Of a DNA stretch of 64,000 nucleotides, positions 25,848-35,849 are shown piece after piece (position 1 is the first letter of the stretch; each line of letters begins with the position of its first letter). The notes under the pieces are model-generated. The model worked only from the letters and a program-made list of their open reading frames with translations, did not search any database and was not told where the DNA came from. The stretch is from positions 1 through 64,000 of the forward strand of contig JAIQFB010000012.1 in NCBI GenBank assembly GCA_020073485.1, read 5' to 3'. The position numbers were made by a program, and so were the translations under genes. The stretch comes from Terriglobia bacterium (GTDB lineage: Bacteria; Acidobacteriota; Terriglobia; Acidiferrales; UBA7541).

Positions 25848-26138
25848 ATGTCGAACCGCGTGAAAGTGGAGATTTACGGCCAAAGCTACACGTTAAGCGG
25901 AGATGTGGACGAGGCCTACGTCCAGAAACTGGCGCGCTACGTGGACGAAAAGATGCGCGCCGTCGCCGAAGCCACCCAAACGGTGGACTCGGTACGCGTG
26001 GCGGTGCTGGCGGCCATGGCCCTGGCCGACGAACTGCACACCCGCGAACACGATACCGGACATCGCGACGACGCCCTGCGCGAGCGCGCCCAGCAATGCC
26101 TGACCATCCTGGAACGCGCCCTGAAGCAAACTGCCTAG
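25848..26138 (+). CDS. zapA: Cell division protein ZapA
   Basis: The 96-residue protein has the ZapA profile: VKVEIYGQSYTLSGDVDEAY at the N-terminus, LARYVDEKMRAVAEA, and a C-terminal coiled coil (VAVLAAMALADELHTREHD). It binds and bundles FtsZ at mid-cell. The start follows GGGAG. It closes the translation cluster, as in several bacterial genomes. Confidence 0.9.
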   Translation: MSNRVKVEIYGQSYTLSGDVDEAYVQKLARYVDEKMRAVAEATQTVDSVRVAVLAAMALADELHTREHDTGHRDDALRERAQQCLTILERALKQTA

Positions 26139-26246: not shown

Positions 26247-26525
26247 GTGTCGAAAGCGATTCGCATTCTCGGTATTTCCTTGGCGCTGGTCGCGCTGCTG
26301 GCCTTTTCCACTGGAGTGGTCAGCGACTGGAATCACCATGATTCCAGGAGCGACGCCCGCTGCCCGTACTGCCACCTGAGCCATCAGGCGGCAGGGCAAA
26401 CCGAAAATAGCCAATGCACTGCCGTTCTCAATCCGGTCGATTCGTTGCCCCTGCCGGAAGATTCGACGCTGGTCGTTTCCCCGGCAACATCGAATACCTC
26501 TCCCCGCGCACCCCCTGCTGCGTAA
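26247..26525 (+). CDS. Small membrane-anchored CPYCH-motif protein, copy 1
   Basis: The 92-residue protein starts at GTG 26247 with one hydrophobic segment (residues 8-26) followed by SDWNHHDSRSDARCPYCHLS. Cys39, Cys42, His43 and His46 plus an HH pair make a likely metal-binding (or less likely c-heme) patch facing the periplasm. The tail has SLPLPED and ends PRAPPAA. A paralogue at 32427 has the same elements, and the two bracket a CzcCBA-type efflux operon. This resembles DUF2946-like small proteins found beside metal transporters; the family assignment is inference. Confidence 0.75.
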   Translation: MSKAIRILGISLALVALLAFSTGVVSDWNHHDSRSDARCPYCHLSHQAAGQTENSQCTAVLNPVDSLPLPEDSTLVVSPATSNTSPRAPPAA

Positions 26526-26720
26526 TTTGCTCGCTGGAGCGCCGGCAACCACTGGCGCTGACCAATAGAAATCCAATCCATCTGGTCCCTTGAGGCGTCC
26601 CGACGCATTGCATTTTTCGGGATCATTCCTCAAAGGCCTCGACCATTCCTAATTCCGGACGGTTCCCCGTCTGAATTCAGGGTAGGCGAGCGGAGCCCGA
26701 ACCCGAGCAGGAGAGAAATC

Positions 26721-28037
26721 ATGGACACGAAGTACAGGGCGCAAACATGTTGGCCCTTGATGGCAATCGGCATTCTGGCGCTGCTGGCGCCGTTCCGAGC
26801 GGAGACGCAAACCGCGGCGCAGCCCGCGCCCCAAGCCGCGGCCCTTGCCACGCACGTCACGCTCGATCAGGCGATCGACCTGGCGCTGAAGCACAACCAC
26901 TCGCTGCAGGCGGCGCGCACGCTGATCCTGCAGAATCAGGCGCAGGAGATCACCGCGAATCTGCGGCCCAATCCCGTGGGCCTTATCGACGAGCAATACT
27001 TGCCGTTCTTCTCGCCCAGCGCCTTCACGCACGATTACGTGGACACCAACGCGGTCTTCGACCTGGGATTTTCCTACCTGATCGAACGCGGCAAGAAACG
27101 CCAGCGGCGCCTGGAGGCCGCGCGCGACCAGACCTCGGTCACCACCGCGACGGTGACGGACGACGAGCGCGCCTTGACTGCAAACGTCGCCCAGCAATTT
27201 GTCGCCGCCCTTCTGGCCAAGGCCAATGTCGAGTTGGCGCAACAGGACCTAACCAGCTTCCAGCAGACCGTGGACATCAGCCAGTCGTCGTTTCAGGCCG
27301 GGGCCCTGAGCGAAGGCGACCTTCTGAAGATCAAATTGCAGCTCCTGCAATTCCAGATGGATCTTTCGTCCGCAAAGCTGGCCCAGGTGCAGGCGCTGGC
27401 GAGCCTGCGGCAACTGATCGGATTCGACGCCGTGCCCGAAAATTACCAGGTCGACGGCGAATTGACCTACGAAAACGTGCACCTGAATCTGGACGATTTG
27501 AAGATGCTGGCGCTGCGCACCAGGCCTGACCTTCGCGCCGCTGTGCTCGGCGTCCAGGCGGCACAAAGCCAGTACGCGCTGGCCAAGGCCAACGGAAAGC
27601 AGGACCTGGGCGTGACGTTCACCTACAACCATCTGGGCGGCGTGAATACCGGCTCGCTCTTCTTCAACATGCCCATTCCCATCTTTGACCGCAACCAGGG
27701 CGAAATCGCGCGGACGCGCTATGCCATCACGCAATCGCAGGAGCTTTCGACCGAACAATCCTCGATTGCGCTCACCGACGTCACCAACTCGTACGAATCG
27801 GTGCGCACCAGCGATGAAGTCGTGCAGCTCTTTAAGGGCGGCTATCTGAAGCAGGCCGAGGATTCGCGAGATATCAGCCAGTACGCCTACCAGCGCGGCG
27901 CCGCCAGCCTGCTCGATTTTCTGGATGCCGAACGCAGCTATCGCTCCACCGAGCTTGCCTACCGGCAAGCCCTCGCACAATACATGTCTTCGCTCGAGCA
28001 ATTGCGGCAGGCAGTGGGCACCAGGAGTTTGCCATGA
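26721..28037 (+). CDS. TolC-family outer-membrane efflux channel (CzcC/CusC-like)
   Basis: The 438-residue protein has a signal region and two long helical repeats of the outer-membrane-factor type (THVTLDQAIDLALKHNHSLQ; then a second repeat with RTRPDLRAAVLGVQAAQSQY). The repeats form the periplasmic tunnel and a beta-barrel. It ends with YRQALAQYMSSLEQLRQAVG. It overlaps the adaptor gene by four bases, so the three efflux genes form one operon. ATG 26721 follows AGGAGAGAA. Confidence 0.9.
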   Translation: MDTKYRAQTCWPLMAIGILALLAPFRAETQTAAQPAPQAAALATHVTLDQAIDLALKHNHSLQAARTLILQNQAQEITANLRPNPVGLIDEQYLPFFSPSAFTHDYVDTNAVFDLGFSYLIERGKKRQRRLEAARDQTSVTTATVTDDERALTANVAQQFVAALLAKANVELAQQDLTSFQQTVDISQSSFQAGALSEGDLLKIKLQLLQFQMDLSSAKLAQVQALASLRQLIGFDAVPENYQVDGELTYENVHLNLDDLKMLALRTRPDLRAAVLGVQAAQSQYALAKANGKQDLGVTFTYNHLGGVNTGSLFFNMPIPIFDRNQGEIARTRYAITQSQELSTEQSSIALTDVTNSYESVRTSDEVVQLFKGGYLKQAEDSRDISQYAYQRGAASLLDFLDAERSYRSTELAYRQALAQYMSSLEQLRQAVGTRSLP

Positions 28038-29236
28038 ACATGAAAAACAACGTGTGGAACCAATCCTGGGCCCGTCGGCAGCGGCGCTGCACGGGCCGCC
28101 TTGCGGCGCTGGCAGCGGCGCTGGCGCTCGCCGGTTGCGGGGGCGCGAATGAACCGGCGAGCAAGATGACCTCGTTCTCGACCACCGAGAGTGCCGCGAG
28201 CAAAGCAGAACTGTTCTCGCTGCCGGCCGATCAGATGGCGCACATCCAGATCTTCACGGTGGCCGCGTCGCCCATGGTGCGCACGCTGCGCCTTTCCGGC
28301 GCGGTGGCCTACAACAGTTTCCTGACCACGCCGGTGATCACGCAGGTGGGCGGGCCGGTGAGCCGCATCGTGGCCGCGCCCGGCGAGCACGTGAACAAGG
28401 GCCAGCCGTTGCTGTACGTCGCCAGCCCCGACTACTCGCAAATGCGCTCCGCCTACGTCAAGGCGCGGGACGCTTTCCAGCTTGCCGACAAGTCTTTCAA
28501 ACGCGCGCAGGACCTGCTGGCGCACAAAGCCATCGCGCAAGCGGACCTCGATCAAGCCGAATCGAACCGCACGCAGGCCGAGGCCGACTTGCAGTCCAGC
28601 GAGCAGGCCATTCGCGTCCTGGGCATCGCCAATCCCGAGAGTATCCTGACCGCTGCTCCCTCCGCGGAATTGCCGCTGGCGTCGCCCGTGGCGGGCGAAG
28701 TGGTGGAGCGGCTCTGCTCGGCGGGGCAATTGCTGCAGGCCGGAGGAACGCAATGCTTCACGATTTCCGACATGAACAGCGTGTGGGTGCTGGTCAACGT
28801 CTACCAGAATGACATCGCCTATGTGCACGTCGGCGAGGACGTGACCATCGAAAACGAAACCTACCCAGGCGTGGTGCACGGCAAGATTCAATACGTCGCT
28901 CCGTCGCTCGACCCAACCACCAGAACCCTGCAGGCGCGCATTGAGGCCTCCAACCCGGGCGAGCGGCTCAGGAAAGACATGTACGTGACCGCGGAAGTGC
29001 GCGCCGGCGTTGTGCCCAACGCGCTGCTGGTTCCCGATGCCGCCGTGCTGCGGGACGATCAAAACATGCCCTACGTCTACCTGCAAACAGGCAACGCCCA
29101 GTTTGCCAGGCGCATGGTGAACGTCGGCGAAAGCCAAACAGGAAAAACTCAGATTTTGAGCGGACTGCAGGCGGGCGACAAAATTGTCGGCGACGGCAGC
29201 TTGTTCCTGCAATTTCAGAATTCGCTGCAACGTTGA
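28034..29236 (+). CDS. RND efflux periplasmic adaptor (membrane fusion lipoprotein)
   Basis: The 400-residue protein has a lipobox (ALALAGC, Cys at about residue 35) and the barrel-sandwich/lipoyl pattern of HlyD-type adaptors: TQVGGPVSRIVAAPGEHVNK, then a helical hairpin, ADLDQAESNRTQAEADLQSS, and the beta-barrel region GEVVERLCSAGQLLQAGGTQ. It links the inner-membrane pump to the outer-membrane channel. No His-rich metal-binding N-terminus like that of CzcB is evident. It is translationally coupled to the channel gene. Confidence 0.9.
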   Translation: MNMKNNVWNQSWARRQRRCTGRLAALAAALALAGCGGANEPASKMTSFSTTESAASKAELFSLPADQMAHIQIFTVAASPMVRTLRLSGAVAYNSFLTTPVITQVGGPVSRIVAAPGEHVNKGQPLLYVASPDYSQMRSAYVKARDAFQLADKSFKRAQDLLAHKAIAQADLDQAESNRTQAEADLQSSEQAIRVLGIANPESILTAAPSAELPLASPVAGEVVERLCSAGQLLQAGGTQCFTISDMNSVWVLVNVYQNDIAYVHVGEDVTIENETYPGVVHGKIQYVAPSLDPTTRTLQARIEASNPGERLRKDMYVTAEVRAGVVPNALLVPDAAVLRDDQNMPYVYLQTGNAQFARRMVNVGESQTGKTQILSGLQAGDKIVGDGSLFLQFQNSLQR

Positions 29237-29255
29237 GCCGGGGGCAAAAGAAAAC

Positions 29256-32200
29256 ATGATCCATCATTTCGTTCAATTCGCTCTCCGCCAGCGTTTCCTG
29301 GTGCTGATGCTGGTCCTGTTTGTGGTCGTCGCGGGCGCGCTTTCCTTCCAGCGCATGCCGGTGGACGCCTATCCGGATCTTTCACCACCGATGGTGGAGG
29401 TGATCACCCAGTGGCCCGGCCACGCAGCCGAGGAAATCGAGCGGCTGGTGACCCTGCCGATCGAAGTCGAAATGAATGGCGTGCCGCACCTGGCCGTGAT
29501 GCGCTCGATTTCGCTGTATGGACTTTCCGACGTCATCATGACGTTCCAGGAAAGTACGGACGATTACTTCGCGCGCCAAGTGGTGTTTGAACGGCTGGCC
29601 GGCGCGCAACTCCCCTCGGGGGTGACCCCGGGATTGTCGCCTCTGTTCAGTCCGTCGGGCCTGGTGTATCGCTACGTCCTCGAAAGCCCGGACCGCAGCC
29701 CGCAGGAATTGAAGACGATTGAGGATTGGGTCGTCGAGCGCGCCTACAAATCGGTGCCGGGAGTGGCGGACGATTCCAGCCTGGGCGGCACGACCATGCA
29801 ATACCAAGTGCTGCTAGATCCCGCAAAGATTTACAGCTATCACATCGCCCTGCCACAGGTGCTCGCGGCACTGACCGCGAACAACGCGAATGCCGGCGGC
29901 GGATTCTACTCTCAGGGATCGCAGTTTTTCTACGTGCGCGGGCTGGGCCTGGTCACAAAGACCGAGGACATCGCAAACATCGTCGTCGGAAACAACAATG
30001 GCGTCCCCGTGCGAATCCGCGACATCGGCGAGGTGACCATCGGAAGCGCGCCGCGCCTGGGAGAATTCGGTTTCCAGAAAAATGACGACGCCGTCGAAGG
30101 CGTGATTCTCATGCTCCGCGGCGAGCAGACGCAAAATGTCCTGCAGGGCGTGGAAAAGAAGACGGAGGAGCTGAACCACGGCATCTTGCCGCCGGACGTG
30201 AAAGTCCGGCCCTATTACGACCGCAGCGACCTGGTGCGGCTCACGATTGATACGGTCGAGCACAACATGCTCGTGGGCATGACGCTAGTGCTCATCGTTC
30301 TGATCTTTTTTCTGGTCAGTATTCGCGCCGCGATCATTGTGGCCCTGACCATTCCCCTCAGCCTCCTTTTTGCCTTCATTCTCCTGCATGGCCGGGGCGT
30401 CCCCGCCAATCTGCTCTCCATCGGTGCGATCGATTTCGGAATCATCATCGACGGCACCGTGGTGATGATGGAAAACATTTTCCGGGAACTCACCGAGCGC
30501 CACGGGCAGGAGTACAACCTGCATGAGGTGATTGCGGCGGCGGCGCGCGACGTCGACCGGCCCATTTTTTATTCCGTCGCCGTGATCCTGGCGGGCTATC
30601 TTCCGATTTATGCGCTGACCGGCCCCTCCGGAAAATTGTTCGTACCCATGGCCGAGACGATGTCATACGCGCTGCTGGGCTCGCTCATTTTCACTCTCAC
30701 TCTTGTGCCCGTGCTCGCTTCCTATTGGTTTAAAACCGGCGTCAAGGAAGTCGTGAACCGGCCCTACGAATGGGTGAAGGGGGTTTACGCCGGAGAGCTC
30801 GACTGGTGCCTGGACCATCCGAAAACAACGATGGCCGTCGCGGCGCTCATTTTCGGCGCGACGCTGCTGCTGGTGCCCTACATCGGCGGCGAATTCATGC
30901 CGCACCTGGATGAAGGCGCTCTGTGGGTGCGCGCCACAATGCCGTACACGATTTCGTTCGAGGAGTCATCGAAGTTCGCACCCCAGGTGCGCAACATCCT
31001 GATGTCTTATCCGATGGTGACCGAAGTCGGATCGGAACTCGGCCGCCCGGACGACGGCACCGATCCCACCGGATTTTTCAATTGTGAATTCTACGTGGGA
31101 CTACACCCCTATAAAGACAAAACGTGGTCCCAGGGCCCGATCCACAACAAGGCGGAACTCACCGCGGACCTGCAAAAAAAGCTCGACGCTTATCCCGGCG
31201 TGATTTTCAACTACACGCAACCCGCCGAGGACGCCGTGGACGAGGCCCTGACGGGACTCAAAAGCGCGCTGGCGGTGAAAATTTACGGGCAGGATTTGCA
31301 GGTACTCGAAGACAAAGCCGTCGAGATCAAACGCGTTCTTTCGCAAGTGCCGGGCTTCACCGAGTTGACCGTGGTGCGCGAGCTGGGCCAGCCCAGCGTG
31401 CAGATCGACGTGGACCGCGAAAAGATCGCGCGTTACGGCATCAATGTTTCCGACGTCGAAGGCGTCATCGAAGCGGGAGTGGGCGGCCAGGCGGCCACGC
31501 AGGTGATTCAGGGAGAGCGCCTGTTCGACCTGGTTGTGCGCATGAAGCCTGAATACCGCTCCAGCACGGGGGAAATCGGCAATCTGCTGGTGCCCACGCC
31601 CAGCGGGCAGCAAGTCCCGATCTCCGAACTTGCCACGATCCATCAGGGAAACGGCGCCTCGTTTATTTATCGCGAAAATAATTCCCGGTATATCGGCGTG
31701 CAGTTCAGCATCGAGGGGCGCGACTTGGCGCGCGCGGTGGGTGAGGCGCAGGAGGCGGTGCGCCAGTCGGTGGTGCTGCCGCAGGGCTACACGCTCGACT
31801 GGGGTGGCGAATACAGCGAGTACGTGGCGGCGCGTGGGCAGTTCGCCGTAATCGGACCGCTCGCGATTCTCCTGATCTTCATGATCCTGTTCGCGCTCTA
31901 CGGCAATTTCAAGTTCCCGGTGACGGTGATGATCGGCGTGGTGATGACCGAGCCAGTGGGAGCGTTGATCGCCCTGAAACTGACGCACACGGCATTCAGC
32001 GTGAGTTCCGTGCTGGGCTTGCTGGCGCTGATGGGCGTCTCGGTGGAAACCGCCGTCATTCTGGTGTCCTACATCAATAAATTACGGCTCGAAAATCATG
32101 ACATTCGCACGGCCACGCGCGAGGCGGCGCTCTTGCGGCTGCGCCCGATCATGATGACCGCCCTGGTGGCGTGCCTCGGCCTGCTTCCGGCCGCGCTTTC

Positions 32201-32342
32201 CACCGGCATCGGCTCTGACACGCAAAAACCGTTCGCCATCGTGATTGTCGCGGGATTGATTTCGCGCCTGTTTCTGGGATTCTTCGTTAACCCGGTCCTG
32301 TACGAAATGGTGGCGAAGGATGGCGATGTGCTGCAGGTGTAG
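29256..32342 (+). CDS. czcA: Heavy-metal efflux RND transporter, CzcA type
   Basis: ATG 29256 opens the 1028-residue inner-membrane proton antiporter at MIHHFVQFALRQRFLVLMLV. It has 12 transmembrane segments and two large periplasmic loops. TM4 reads DFGIIIDGTVVMMEN, with Asp393, Asp399 and Glu406 spaced exactly as Asp402/Asp408/Glu415 of the Cupriavidus CzcA proton relay. This groups it with Co/Zn/Cd exporters rather than CusA-type Cu/Ag pumps. It lies 19 bases after the adaptor gene. Confidence 0.93.
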   Translation: MIHHFVQFALRQRFLVLMLVLFVVVAGALSFQRMPVDAYPDLSPPMVEVITQWPGHAAEEIERLVTLPIEVEMNGVPHLAVMRSISLYGLSDVIMTFQESTDDYFARQVVFERLAGAQLPSGVTPGLSPLFSPSGLVYRYVLESPDRSPQELKTIEDWVVERAYKSVPGVADDSSLGGTTMQYQVLLDPAKIYSYHIALPQVLAALTANNANAGGGFYSQGSQFFYVRGLGLVTKTEDIANIVVGNNNGVPVRIRDIGEVTIGSAPRLGEFGFQKNDDAVEGVILMLRGEQTQNVLQGVEKKTEELNHGILPPDVKVRPYYDRSDLVRLTIDTVEHNMLVGMTLVLIVLIFFLVSIRAAIIVALTIPLSLLFAFILLHGRGVPANLLSIGAIDFGIIIDGTVVMMENIFRELTERHGQEYNLHEVIAAAARDVDRPIFYSVAVILAGYLPIYALTGPSGKLFVPMAETMSYALLGSLIFTLTLVPVLASYWFKTGVKEVVNRPYEWVKGVYAGELDWCLDHPKTTMAVAALIFGATLLLVPYIGGEFMPHLDEGALWVRATMPYTISFEESSKFAPQVRNILMSYPMVTEVGSELGRPDDGTDPTGFFNCEFYVGLHPYKDKTWSQGPIHNKAELTADLQKKLDAYPGVIFNYTQPAEDAVDEALTGLKSALAVKIYGQDLQVLEDKAVEIKRVLSQVPGFTELTVVRELGQPSVQIDVDREKIARYGINVSDVEGVIEAGVGGQAATQVIQGERLFDLVVRMKPEYRSSTGEIGNLLVPTPSGQQVPISELATIHQGNGASFIYRENNSRYIGVQFSIEGRDLARAVGEAQEAVRQSVVLPQGYTLDWGGEYSEYVAARGQFAVIGPLAILLIFMILFALYGNFKFPVTVMIGVVMTEPVGALIALKLTHTAFSVSSVLGLLALMGVSVETAVILVSYINKLRLENHDIRTATREAALLRLRPIMMTALVACLGLLPAALSTGIGSDTQKPFAIVIVAGLISRLFLGFFVNPVLYEMVAKDGDVLQV

Positions 32343-32426
32343 TGAAGGGATTAAACTGAATTTACATGGGCTTAAGATGACGTTGGCAAGCATTCGATTT
32401 TTGTCGAAGGCTCTTGGACTATTCGC

Positions 32427-32714
32427 ATGAGCGTGCGCAAGACAATTCGCGTACTGGCGGTTTTTTTCGCAGTCCTCGCGCTGTTTGTATTTTCCACGAC
32501 GGTTGTAAGTGACTGGGATTGTCACAGTGCAGCGGACGACACGCAATGTCCCTACTGTCACCTGACGCACCAGGCGCCCGCTCCGGAACTCGAGATTGCC
32601 AAAAATGTTCCCGTGCCCGAGCCGGTTGGTTCCCTGCCTTTGCCGGAAGATGCAATTCCGGTTGCGGCCCCCGTTCTTTCCGAGGCTGCCCCGCGCGCTC
32701 CCCCCGCCGCATAA
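32427..32714 (+). CDS. Small membrane-anchored CPYCH-motif protein, copy 2
   Basis: The 95-residue paralogue of 26247-26525 has one hydrophobic helix (residues 7-27), VVSDWDCH, then CPYCHLTHQAP with Cys41, Cys44, His45 and His48, SLPLPED and the same PRAPPAA end. The extra Cys32-His33 pair is not in copy 1. It lies 84 bases after the pump gene and 144 before the TonB-dependent receptor, the place where DUF2946-like proteins are often found. A role in periplasmic metal binding or sensing is inferred. Confidence 0.75.
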   Translation: MSVRKTIRVLAVFFAVLALFVFSTTVVSDWDCHSAADDTQCPYCHLTHQAPAPELEIAKNVPVPEPVGSLPLPEDAIPVAAPVLSEAAPRAPPAA

Positions 32715-32858
32715 ACAACGGAATTTCTCCTTGATTCACTAACGGTTGCGCTTCTCTCGAAAACTAAGAGAGAGCGGCGCACACGCCCATTTCCATTTGG
32801 GTGGCCACCCTGTCGCAGTACCTACGCGTTCCCCCCCGGGGGCAGAGGAGAAAACAAT

Positions 32859-35510
32859 ATGTATTTCCGCAGGCTTGTATTTTTTATTTTTGGTTTCGTC
32901 TTATTTTTTCGTGCGTCGTCCGTCTTGGCGCAATCGTCCGGGACGGTTAGCGGAGTCGTGAAGGATCCTTCCGGCGGCGTTCTGGCAAACGCCACGGTCA
33001 ATATCTCGGATCCGGTCAGCGGCTACACTCGGGAAACCTCGACTGGTCCAATTGGAGATTTTCGGTTCACCAATATCCCGTTCAATCCATACCATCTGGC
33101 CGTAGTCGCGAAGGGATTTGCGCAGTTCTCTCAGGACGTCGAAGTTCGCTCGGTGGTGCCCGTATCGCTGGATATCAGCCTGAAACTGAGCACCTCGACG
33201 GAAAACATCACCGTGGAAGCGAGCGGCGCGGACCTGGTGGAAACCGAGTCGACGCCGCACACCGACATGGACCGCGACCTGTTCGACAAGTTGCCGCTCG
33301 AGAGCCAGTCTTCCTCCGTCAGTTCGCTGGTGACGCTTGCCTCGCCTGGCGTGGTGGCCGATTCCAACGGGCTTTTTCATGGTCTGGGGGATCATGCGGA
33401 AAATTCCTTTTCCGTCGACGGCCAGCCCATCACCGACCAGCAAAGCAAAGTTTTCTCCAACCAGATCCCCGTGGATTCCATCCAGTCCATGGAAGTTATC
33501 TCCGGCGCGCCCCCCGCGGAGTTTGGGGACAAGACCAGTTTGATCATCAAGGTCACCACGCGTTCCGGTGTCGGAGACACAAAGCCCACCGGCAGCGTAT
33601 CTTCGTCCTACGGCACGTTTGGCTCGGTGGATACCAGCGCGAACCTCGCCATCGGAGGCGCAAAGTGGGGGAATTTTGTTTCGCTGAGCGGGCTCAACAC
33701 TTCGCGTTTCCTCGACCCGCCCGAATTCCAGGCGTTCCACGACCGAGGAAATGAAGAAAACGGATTCGACCGCTTCGATATGCAGCCGAATCTGGCGGAT
33801 TCCTTCCACTTCAACTTCGGTTTTACGCGCTCCTGGTTTCAGACCCCGAATTCCTACGACGCGCAGTTTCATCCGTGCAATCCGACGGATACGTGCAATC
33901 CTGCGGGCACCAATTCCGTCAATCCCGTTACAGGCGCGCCTCTCAGTCCCTCGGATCAGCGGTCGCAAATCAAAACGTTCAACATTGCGCCGACCTATAC
34001 GCACCTATTCGGCACGACGGCAGTCTTGACGGTGGGCGCATTCATCCGGCAAGACCAATACAACTACTATCCCAGCGCCGATCCTTTTTCCGATTTCAGC
34101 ACTTTCCTGCAGAGTGCGACCGCCGGCGAAAATCGCTCGCTCACCAACGCGGGGGTTCACTCCGATATTTCTTACGTGAAAGGCGCTCATAACATCAAAG
34201 TTGGAGTTACCTTTCAACACACATTTATTACTGAGAACGACACGATCGGCGTCGTCGATCCTACATTCTTCGGCCCTGGCTCTTGCCCGAATTCCGCAAA
34301 CCCCGCATGCCCGTACGACCTGACACAGGGAGGAAGTCTTTTCCATTTTCACGGCCACACGGACATCAAGGAGGTCGCATTATTCATTCAGGATACGATC
34401 ACGAAAGGAAATTGGTCCTTCAATCTTGGTGTTCGCGAAGACCTCTATCGCGGCATCTCAAGCGCCACGCAGACCGAGCCGCGCGCTGGTATTGCCTACA
34501 ACTTTAAGCCGACGGCTACGGTTCTGCGTGTCTCCTATGCCCGCCTTCTGGAGACTCCCTTCAACGAAAATCTGGTGGTTGCCAGCGCGGGGGATGCGCA
34601 AGGCGTCTTCGCCAGCGTTCTTGGCACGCCCGGCCCGGTGCCCCCCGGGCAGCGCAATGATTTTCACGCAGGCTTCGAGCAGGCTTTCGGCAAGCACCTG
34701 GTAATCGACGCCGACTACATGTGGAAATACACGCACAATGCGTACGATTTCAGCGTGCTCTTCAACACTCCGATCACCTACCCCATCGCGTGGCAACGGT
34801 CCAAAATCAATGGGCCTTCTTTTCGCGTCAGCTTTCCGGATTATCACGGCCTCTCGGCATTTTTCACCGCCAGCAACGTCGCAGCGCGCTTTTTCAATCC
34901 GCAAGTCGGCGGCCTGGGCACGGACTTGACGACCGTGGGCGCGTTCCGCATCGACCACGATCAAAAATTTCAGCAGACCACCCACATCCAGTATCAGCCG
35001 CGCCCCAATCTGCCGTGGATTGGCTTCAACTGGCGGTACGATAACGGCCTGGTCGCCGGCGCCGTCCCCTGCTTTAATGACACCGACCCGAACAGCAGCT
35101 GCGGCCCCATTTCCTTCCGTGTCGCCGGAGTTCCCTACATAAATCTGAGCGGCCTGTCGCCGGATCAGCAGGCGCAGGCGGGCCTCACGTGCAACGGTGT
35201 GGCCGCAACTCTGGCGGCGGCATTTGCCTCCTGCCCTGCATCCCAGTTTGGTTCCACACGCGTCGTCATACCGGCGCCCGGAACGGAGGACAACGACCAC
35301 AATCCGCCGCGAATTGCTCCACGACACCTGTTCGATCTGGCATTCGGGGACGATAACCTGTTCCACGGAGACCGCTTTAAATGGAGCGCGCGATTCACCG
35401 TAGTCAACATGACCAACAAAGTCGCCCTGTATAACTTCCTTTCCACCTTTAGCGGAACCCACTTCGTCACGCCGCGCACGCTGACGGCCGAGTTGGGATT
35501 TCACTTCTAG
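32859..35510 (+). CDS. TonB-dependent receptor with carboxypeptidase-regulatory-like N-terminus
   Basis: The 883-residue outer-membrane protein has a signal peptide (to about residue 25, VLAQ) and a CarboxypepD_reg domain (SGTVSGVVKDPSGGVLANAT). It has a plug-like region (SFSVDGQPITDQQSKVFSNQ, then VDSIQSMEVISGAPPAEFGD) and a long beta-barrel ending in the aromatic LTAELGFHF. GAGGAG precedes ATG 32859. It imports a TonB-energised ligand. Placement after a metal efflux operon hints at a metal complex, but receptors of this type in Acidobacteriota are often for polysaccharides. Confidence 0.9.
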   Translation: MYFRRLVFFIFGFVLFFRASSVLAQSSGTVSGVVKDPSGGVLANATVNISDPVSGYTRETSTGPIGDFRFTNIPFNPYHLAVVAKGFAQFSQDVEVRSVVPVSLDISLKLSTSTENITVEASGADLVETESTPHTDMDRDLFDKLPLESQSSSVSSLVTLASPGVVADSNGLFHGLGDHAENSFSVDGQPITDQQSKVFSNQIPVDSIQSMEVISGAPPAEFGDKTSLIIKVTTRSGVGDTKPTGSVSSSYGTFGSVDTSANLAIGGAKWGNFVSLSGLNTSRFLDPPEFQAFHDRGNEENGFDRFDMQPNLADSFHFNFGFTRSWFQTPNSYDAQFHPCNPTDTCNPAGTNSVNPVTGAPLSPSDQRSQIKTFNIAPTYTHLFGTTAVLTVGAFIRQDQYNYYPSADPFSDFSTFLQSATAGENRSLTNAGVHSDISYVKGAHNIKVGVTFQHTFITENDTIGVVDPTFFGPGSCPNSANPACPYDLTQGGSLFHFHGHTDIKEVALFIQDTITKGNWSFNLGVREDLYRGISSATQTEPRAGIAYNFKPTATVLRVSYARLLETPFNENLVVASAGDAQGVFASVLGTPGPVPPGQRNDFHAGFEQAFGKHLVIDADYMWKYTHNAYDFSVLFNTPITYPIAWQRSKINGPSFRVSFPDYHGLSAFFTASNVAARFFNPQVGGLGTDLTTVGAFRIDHDQKFQQTTHIQYQPRPNLPWIGFNWRYDNGLVAGAVPCFNDTDPNSSCGPISFRVAGVPYINLSGLSPDQQAQAGLTCNGVAATLAAAFASCPASQFGSTRVVIPAPGTEDNDHNPPRIAPRHLFDLAFGDDNLFHGDRFKWSARFTVVNMTNKVALYNFLSTFSGTHFVTPRTLTAELGFHF

Positions 35511-35638: not shown

Positions 35639-35849
35639 TTGGAGTTGGCCTGCAACGCAGGTGCTTGGCGCGAAGATCTTTTGAACCAATACTGGATCTC
35701 CGGGAGCCCGTGTCAGACGGCTGGTGTGCATGGCCCGCGGTGGACTTCGGTCCGCGGCGGGAAAGCCTAAAGGCCGGCGCAGGGTTCCCACCTTATACAG
35801 GAGGTTCAGGATCTAGCCCCACACGGCGAAGTGGACCGCTCCATTTTTT
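35639..35849 (+). ncRNA. ssrS: 6S RNA candidate
   Basis: The roughly 210-base transcript folds as a long rod. TGGAG near the 5' end pairs with CTCCA (35839-35843), AGATCTTTTGAACC pairs with GGTTCAGGATCT (35803-35814), and a terminal hairpin with a TTCG loop lies in the centre. The apical part GGCTGGTGTGCATGGCC, then GAAAGCCTAAAGGCCGGCGC, matches the conserved 6S segment GGUUGGUG-GCAUG...GAAGCCUUAAAACUGCGAC of Escherichia coli in order and spacing. A U-run follows the closing stem. 6S RNA binds sigma70 RNA polymerase in stationary phase. Confidence 0.75.

Follow-up and report, generated by a model that had tools for sequence, protein, structure and literature searches.

Putative metal-sensing leader peptides of the CruR/CutF class ahead of a divalent-type efflux operon and a TonB-dependent receptor gene in Acidobacteriota

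Organisation of the locus

The window, a stretch of 64,000 nucleotides from a Terriglobia bacterium, contains two small open reading frames, uORF1 (ORF1) and uORF2 (ORF2), which are accompanied by genes for metal transport (Table 1). As described in the initial annotation, uORF1 precedes an OEP-adaptor-RND efflux operon and uORF2 a TonB-dependent receptor gene, and the twin paralogous frames, of 92 and 95 residues and 54% identical, contain the motifs quoted there. The pump gene ends 84 nt ahead of the start of uORF2. Codons for CPYCH occur at only two sites in the 64-kb window, one in each small frame, where shuffled sequences lead to an expectation of 0. Moreover, both frames are under purifying selection, with dN/dS values of 0.06-0.28 relative to their relatives. 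The single membrane helix and the extracytoplasmic Cys/His cluster that had been postulated also find support, because a hydrophobic stretch, seen by eye in the sequence, follows K/R at the N-terminus of both peptides and the cluster is predicted to lie outside.

Upstream of uORF1, a 96-aa reading frame (25848-26138, +), which presumably encodes a relative of the cell-division protein ZapA, ends 108 nt ahead of the leader; thus, the unit sits amid housekeeping genes. A 6S RNA gene (Rfam RF00013, 68.5 bits) was found directly past the receptor gene (35644-35841, +).

Table 1. Features of the locus (positions refer to the window)
Feature	Position	Strand	Remark
uORF1, CruR/CutF-like (DUF2946) leader peptide, 92 aa, GTG start	26247..26525	+	Heads the efflux operon
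CPYCHLSH of uORF1 (C39, C42, H43, H46)	26361..26384	+	Putative metal-binding motif
RAPP of uORF1, 44 residues past CxxC, 2 residues ahead of the stop	26505..26516	+	Putative arrest motif
Leader region, 195 nt, uORF1 to OEP	26526..26720	+	
OEP/TolC family outer membrane efflux protein	26721..28037	+	Pfam OEP
Periplasmic adaptor, CusB/CzcB family	28034..29236	+	Pfam HlyD_D23
HME-RND pump, ZneA/CzcA-like, ATG at 29256	29256..32342	+	Pfam ACR_tran
uORF2, CruR/CutF-like (DUF2946) leader peptide, 95 aa, ATG start	32427..32714	+	Heads the receptor gene
CPYCHLTH of uORF2 (C41, C44, H45, H48)	32547..32570	+	Putative metal-binding motif
RAPP of uORF2, 45 residues past CxxC, 2 residues ahead of the stop	32694..32705	+	Putative arrest motif
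Leader region, 144 nt, uORF2 to receptor	32715..32858	+	
TonB-dependent receptor	32859..35510	+	Pfam CarboxypepD_reg and Plug

The leader peptide family and its conserved residues

Comparison with Pfam revealed that uORF2 matches DUF2946 (PF11162) above the cut-off of 23.7 bits (25.4 bits) and that uORF1 scores just below it (18.1 bits, E = 0.0047); among 68 homologues, 41 match the family at E ≤ 0.05. Of the two profiles that had been put forward for comparison, DUF2946 is therefore matched, by one peptide above and by the other below the cut-off, and DUF3347 gave no match up to E = 10. In the alignment of the 68 homologues, columns are on average 33% identical, and invariance is confined to C, C, R, A, P and P. 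The constant core of the family is C-x2-C together with the C-terminal R-A-P-P at a fixed spacing. The common RAPP ending, and not the CPYCH motif, is thus the key feature. The histidine of CPYCH (position 45) varies even within the genus, as illustrated by CPYCQ in locus L044, and other homologues carry CxxCQ or CxxCS rather than CxxCH. The second histidine is kept in at least 90% of the 68 aligned sequences.

The distance between both motifs was analysed in a set of 167 leaders. Of the 128 that end with RAPP and could be assigned to a target, 105 have a gap of 44 residues, and the range is 41 to 45. Normally, RAPP ends 1-4 residues ahead of the stop codon. Decoy tetrapeptides at the same site (KAPP, RAAP, RLPP, RVPP and others) yielded 0-2 matches versus 50 for RAPP. 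The wider leader set also contains the variants RPPP, RGPP, RSPP and RASP. In leaders from the Acidobacteriaceae/Acidobacteriales, RPPP takes the place of RAPP with an unchanged spacing to CxxC (loci L238, L242, L244, L245, L248, L251, L252, L124, L136, L140, L144, L146, L151, L163, L175, L178 and L180), and these leaders precede receptor genes, also in the sister family, as well as the same pump operon. In PMC10987492, RPPP is named solely as one of the motifs used for searching. Two leaders (L069 and L156) end with RASP instead of RAPP; such endings are possibly weakened or decaying arrest motifs. On the basis of their sequences, the twin reading frames can be assigned to DUF2946 and hence to the CruR/CutF class, whose known members are upstream frames that sense metals.

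Occurrence in Acidobacteriota

By using the two peptides as a query, matches were obtained in 48 of the 89 genomes of the family to which the window belongs. The 68-member profile increased this number to 80 of 89 and detected members in 81 of 95 genomes of the order and in 43 of 297 genomes across the phylum. This broader profile was required to recover the leaders widely, as a narrow profile of two sequences gave almost no matches across the phylum. A search with a fixed DNA pattern recovered the window alone because the codons and the residues between the motifs drift. One match of the two-peptide query, L092, lacks the motif and was discarded as a false positive. Genome G206 from another family contains seven profile matches, of which two (C31:66109-66741) are arranged head-to-head.

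Downstream targets of the leaders

Essentially all leaders of the family that were checked are located directly upstream of a pump operon or a receptor gene. A receptor gene follows in 72 cases and an OEP-adaptor-RND operon in another 72. Most of the remaining leaders, some of which were first matched to an overlapping reading frame, belong to a third type, in which the first gene encodes a protein of about 465 residues and the next ones a binding protein of the ZnuA type (E = 4e-53) and a permease of the ABC-3 family (E = 1e-33). Leaders ahead of this outer-membrane-like protein are present in L078, L091, L071, L206, L209, L215, L216 and L233, and the ZnuA-family and permease genes were seen in L078 and L091, the two loci tested. 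The protein of about 465 residues has no match in Pfam; judging from its size and an N-terminal coiled coil, our guess is that it is a porin.

A reverse search, in which the pump protein served as the query, identified 80 orthologues in named assemblies of Acidobacteriota, the nearest ones being those of Terriglobia bacterium SRVP_21 (93%) and Candidatus Acidiferrum typicum (92%). Among the 70 orthologues with enough upstream sequence, a leader ending in R[AG]PP precedes the OEP gene in 31. About ten more operons have an RPPP leader with a gap of 43-45 residues, and single operons have an RSPP or RASP leader, so that these three variants together account for about a dozen; in about 27 of the 70 operons, a recognisable leader is absent. 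The forward and reverse searches agree that the placement of the leaders relative to efflux operons is non-random, which answers the question of co-occurrence raised in the initial annotation. The proposed retention of both copies as a functional unit is likewise borne out by the 22 loci in which leaders of both the pump and the receptor type are present and by the wide occurrence of such frames in the family. The paired leaders are collinear in some loci, including the window, and head-to-head in others (L141, L158 and L161).

Some loci show unusual arrangements. The head-to-head leaders of the receptor and pump type in L141, L158 and L161 share a short region, and opposite-strand leaders in pump loci were observed in these three loci and in L168. 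In L052 (4805-5649), a tandem pair of leaders lies directly ahead of one TonB receptor gene.

Evolution of the leaders

In a tree of 152 leaders, which was built from 94 columns and leaves many forks unresolved, the leaders group by target, yet at least 19 changes of target are required. In the genus of the window, the receptor leaders fall within a mixed clade together with pump leaders. The pump and receptor leaders of a single genome (L041/L042) are each other's nearest relatives; in most other loci, the paired copies are just 12-29% identical. The pattern of the tree therefore indicates that, at least in the genus of the window, the sensor has been swapped between targets or converted.

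Pump type and the sensed metal

The nearest solved structure to the pump is ZneA (775 bits), followed by CusA (495), so that the label Czc given in the initial annotation is reasonable for a pump that is CzcA/ZneA-like by sequence. The acidic residues aligned with D172, E568, D602, D654 and D658 of ZneA, which together with E136 we take to be the zinc ligands of this protein, are wholly or mostly kept; the position of E136 is occupied by L. The D-D-E motif in TM4 is also present. In CusA, the methionine triad M573/M623/M672 binds Cu(I) (PMC8092243). The corresponding residues of the pump in the window are V/N/E, and none of the 80 orthologues has methionine at the three positions. The missing triad speaks against a Cu(I) pump of the CusA type for the RND gene and points to divalent metals.

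The type of the pump and the linkage of leaders to ZnuA-type genes favour a divalent metal ion such as zinc as the sensed metal, bearing in mind that both describe the transporters and not what the peptide binds. The studied relatives CruR and CutF sense copper (PMC9426467, PMC9973294). For the Acidobacteriota leaders, the metal link is probably of the zinc type rather than restricted to copper.

The RNA between leader and target

A stretch in which C exceeds G covers the end of uORF1 and the first part of the 195-nt leader region. Across the leaders of the OEP, receptor and porin-like classes, the excess of C over G at the leader end is +0.20 and positive in all 152 cases, to which the Pro/Ala codons contribute; within the downstream genes, the value is about 0-0.05. 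Neither an intrinsic terminator between leader and target nor an Rfam element in the leader regions was found. The C-rich leader ends and the missing intrinsic terminator fit a control by Rho as in CruR.

The leader regions of the window could also form structures that close the next ribosome binding site. In the efflux operon, base pairing is possible between TTTGCTCG (26526-26533) and CGAGCAGG (26704-26711), which lies at the Shine-Dalgarno site of the OEP gene; ahead of the receptor gene, it is possible between TTTCTCCT (32724-32731) and the Shine-Dalgarno site of that gene, AGGAGAAA (32846-32853). Folding of the window predicted that both sites are closed (unpaired 0.02) and that they open when the masked segment reaches as far as 16 nt beyond the stop codon (0.47 and 0.29). 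Several receptor leaders have perfect complementary pairs, and in a first partner-swap test with 29 receptor leaders, only 4 of 300 permutations were equally good. However, in an enlarged and clustered test with 72 receptor and 70 pump leaders, own partners were no better than swapped ones (p = 0.73 and 0.76 for receptors and 0.79-0.90 for pumps; one of the three receptor settings gave 0.027). As a general mechanism, an anti-Shine-Dalgarno switch thus looked promising for 29 receptor leaders and found no support across 142 leaders.

Comparison with known leader peptides

The initial annotation suggested that the functional unit may be undescribed in Acidobacteriota. This view has to be revised because of the match to DUF2946, the CruR-like layout (PMC9426467) and the occurrence of CutF-like genes upstream of OEP/RND and TonB genes (PMC9973294). 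CruR (Bp2923) of Bordetella pertussis is a copper-responsive, cis-acting leader peptide that is encoded upstream of the gene for the TonB-dependent transporter bfrG; the nascent chain uses CxxC to sense copper and RAPP at its C-terminus to stall the ribosome, with 45 ± 1-2 residues between the motifs, and the metal switches expression off (PMC9426467). Arrest at RAPP has been demonstrated in vitro (PMC12992588). The peptides described here share with CruR the DUF2946 domain, a putative export signal, CxxC, RAPP 2-3 residues ahead of the stop codon, a distance of 44-45 residues between the motifs and the position as the first gene of an operon, which in the case of uORF2 includes a downstream TonB receptor. 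They also have in common a long intergenic region (162 nt in CruR, 195 and 144 nt in the window) and a stretch with C exceeding G over the leader end. In contrast, CruR has 145 residues and the Acidobacteriota peptides of the window have 92-95, two copies occur in one locus, one of which heads a divalent-type efflux operon, and additional histidines follow CxxC.

CutF of Rhodobacter capsulatus is encoded upstream of the multicopper oxidase gene cutO, and in this case the metal switches expression on through a stem-loop (PMC9973294). In the same study, a survey located such genes mostly upstream of OEP/RND genes, followed by TonB and PCuAC genes. Like CutF, the window peptides are DUF2946-like, putatively exported leaders with a Cys motif and a Pro-rich end. 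However, CutF combines CxxxC with a poly-proline end, whereas the window has CxxC and RAPP, and control by a stem-loop is unsupported as a general feature of the Acidobacteriota leaders. CzcI of Cupriavidus metallidurans is also a small frame upstream of czcCBA but lacks a C-terminal proline motif, and arrest has not been proposed for it (PMC9973294). ApdA, ApdP and other RAPP arrest peptides are exported or membrane leaders with a C-terminal RAPP near the stop codon upstream of a regulated gene; unlike these peptides, which monitor Sec/YidC function (PMC7897499, PMC10951233), the conserved CxxC of the present family points to a metal. The pairing of leaders, the RPPP arrest variant, the third target and a ZneA/CzcA-type pump without the CusA methionines were not found in published work.

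Proposed mechanism and alternative explanations

We consider it probable (about 0.78) that each small reading frame acts in cis as a leader of the CruR/CutF class, in which the nascent chain senses a metal and arrest at RAPP controls the next gene. This reading builds on the family match, the invariant CxxC and RAPP, their spacing, the coding constraint, the exclusive placement ahead of metal-transport genes, the C-rich leader and the missing intrinsic terminator, all of which are features of the sequence; arrest, metal binding and downstream control are proposed by analogy with CruR and CutF. The leader peptide would be targeted to the membrane during its synthesis, and R-A-P-P at the C-terminus would halt the translating ribosome just ahead of the stop codon. 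At this point, the CxxC(H), which lies 44-45 residues upstream, would be outside the exit tunnel and free to bind a metal ion, and binding would alter the duration of the stall. Whether the ribosome is stalled or released would then set the expression of the next gene, the likeliest route being that Rho is kept off the C-rich RNA or that access to the next Shine-Dalgarno site is changed. In this manner, uORF1 may control the pump operon and uORF2 the receptor.

The initial annotation suggested a different function, namely that the Cys/His cluster could bind or signal the exported metal in the periplasm. Mature peptides serving as trans-acting chaperones or sensors that feed the pump or the receptor would agree with the hydrophobic N-terminal segment, the Cys/His cluster predicted to be extracytoplasmic and the strict linkage to metal transporters. 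However, the layout is that of the cis-acting leader CruR, the best-conserved element is RAPP with its constant spacing to CxxC and the remaining mature region drifts, a pattern expected for an arrest peptide. Moreover, CruR cannot be complemented in trans (PMC9426467) and the CutF protein was undetected in cells (PMC9973294), and we regard a periplasmic carrier as quite unlikely. CPYCH also fits the haem-attachment motif CxxCH, and with their presumed export the peptides could be small c-type haemoproteins; given that the ligand histidine is not conserved and no cytochrome family was matched in the Pfam scan, this explanation is hardly credible. It is very unlikely, too, that the peptides are metal-sensing regulators that do not arrest the ribosome, in the way suggested for CzcI of Cupriavidus: the position ahead of a czcCBA-type operon is identical and CzcI has been grouped with CutF-like proteins, but the C-terminal proline motif that CzcI lacks (PMC9973294) is invariant in the 68 aligned homologues.

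A further alternative retains the arrest peptide and replaces Rho termination by a translational switch of the SecM/CutF type, in which the stalled ribosome blocks the pairing that closes the Shine-Dalgarno site. The folding of the window, the complementary pairs and the swap test with 29 leaders speak for it; the enlarged swap test speaks against it, and going by the known footprint, the edge of the stalled ribosome would lie close to the stop codon and would not reach the element of the window. We regard such a switch as rather doubtful.

Under the preferred reading of cis-acting arrest leaders, the sign of the response deserves attention. With the sign of CruR for both leaders, the metal would shut the exporter off, and with that of CutF, it would turn the receptor on. 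A switch of the CruR type by which metal turns off an exporter would be physiologically odd. Either the sign differs between the two leaders, or simple import of the sensed metal is not the role of the receptor. A more far-reaching model, in which paired arrest peptides for zinc or other divalent ions have opposite outcomes for import and export, the cassette is exchanged between targets, the RNA sets the sign and RPPP arose by drift in a sister lineage, is speculative and on balance improbable.

Significance

It is well-founded that a known class of leaders, CruR/CutF, occurs in Acidobacteriota in an arrangement that joins a pump and a receptor. These leaders include an RPPP variant, and their targets are probably of the divalent-metal type. 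The natural series RAPP, RGPP, RPPP, RSPP and RASP at a fixed spacing could be used to test which sequences arrest ribosomes. If the proposed mechanism is true, metal-sensing ribosome-arrest leaders would extend to the Acidobacteriota, where they would be present in 80 of the 89 genomes of one family, and their scope would widen from copper to divalent-type pumps and importers. The locus thereby poses the question of how one kind of sensor may be suited to an exporter as well as to a TonB receptor, given that the two are expected to respond oppositely to the metal.
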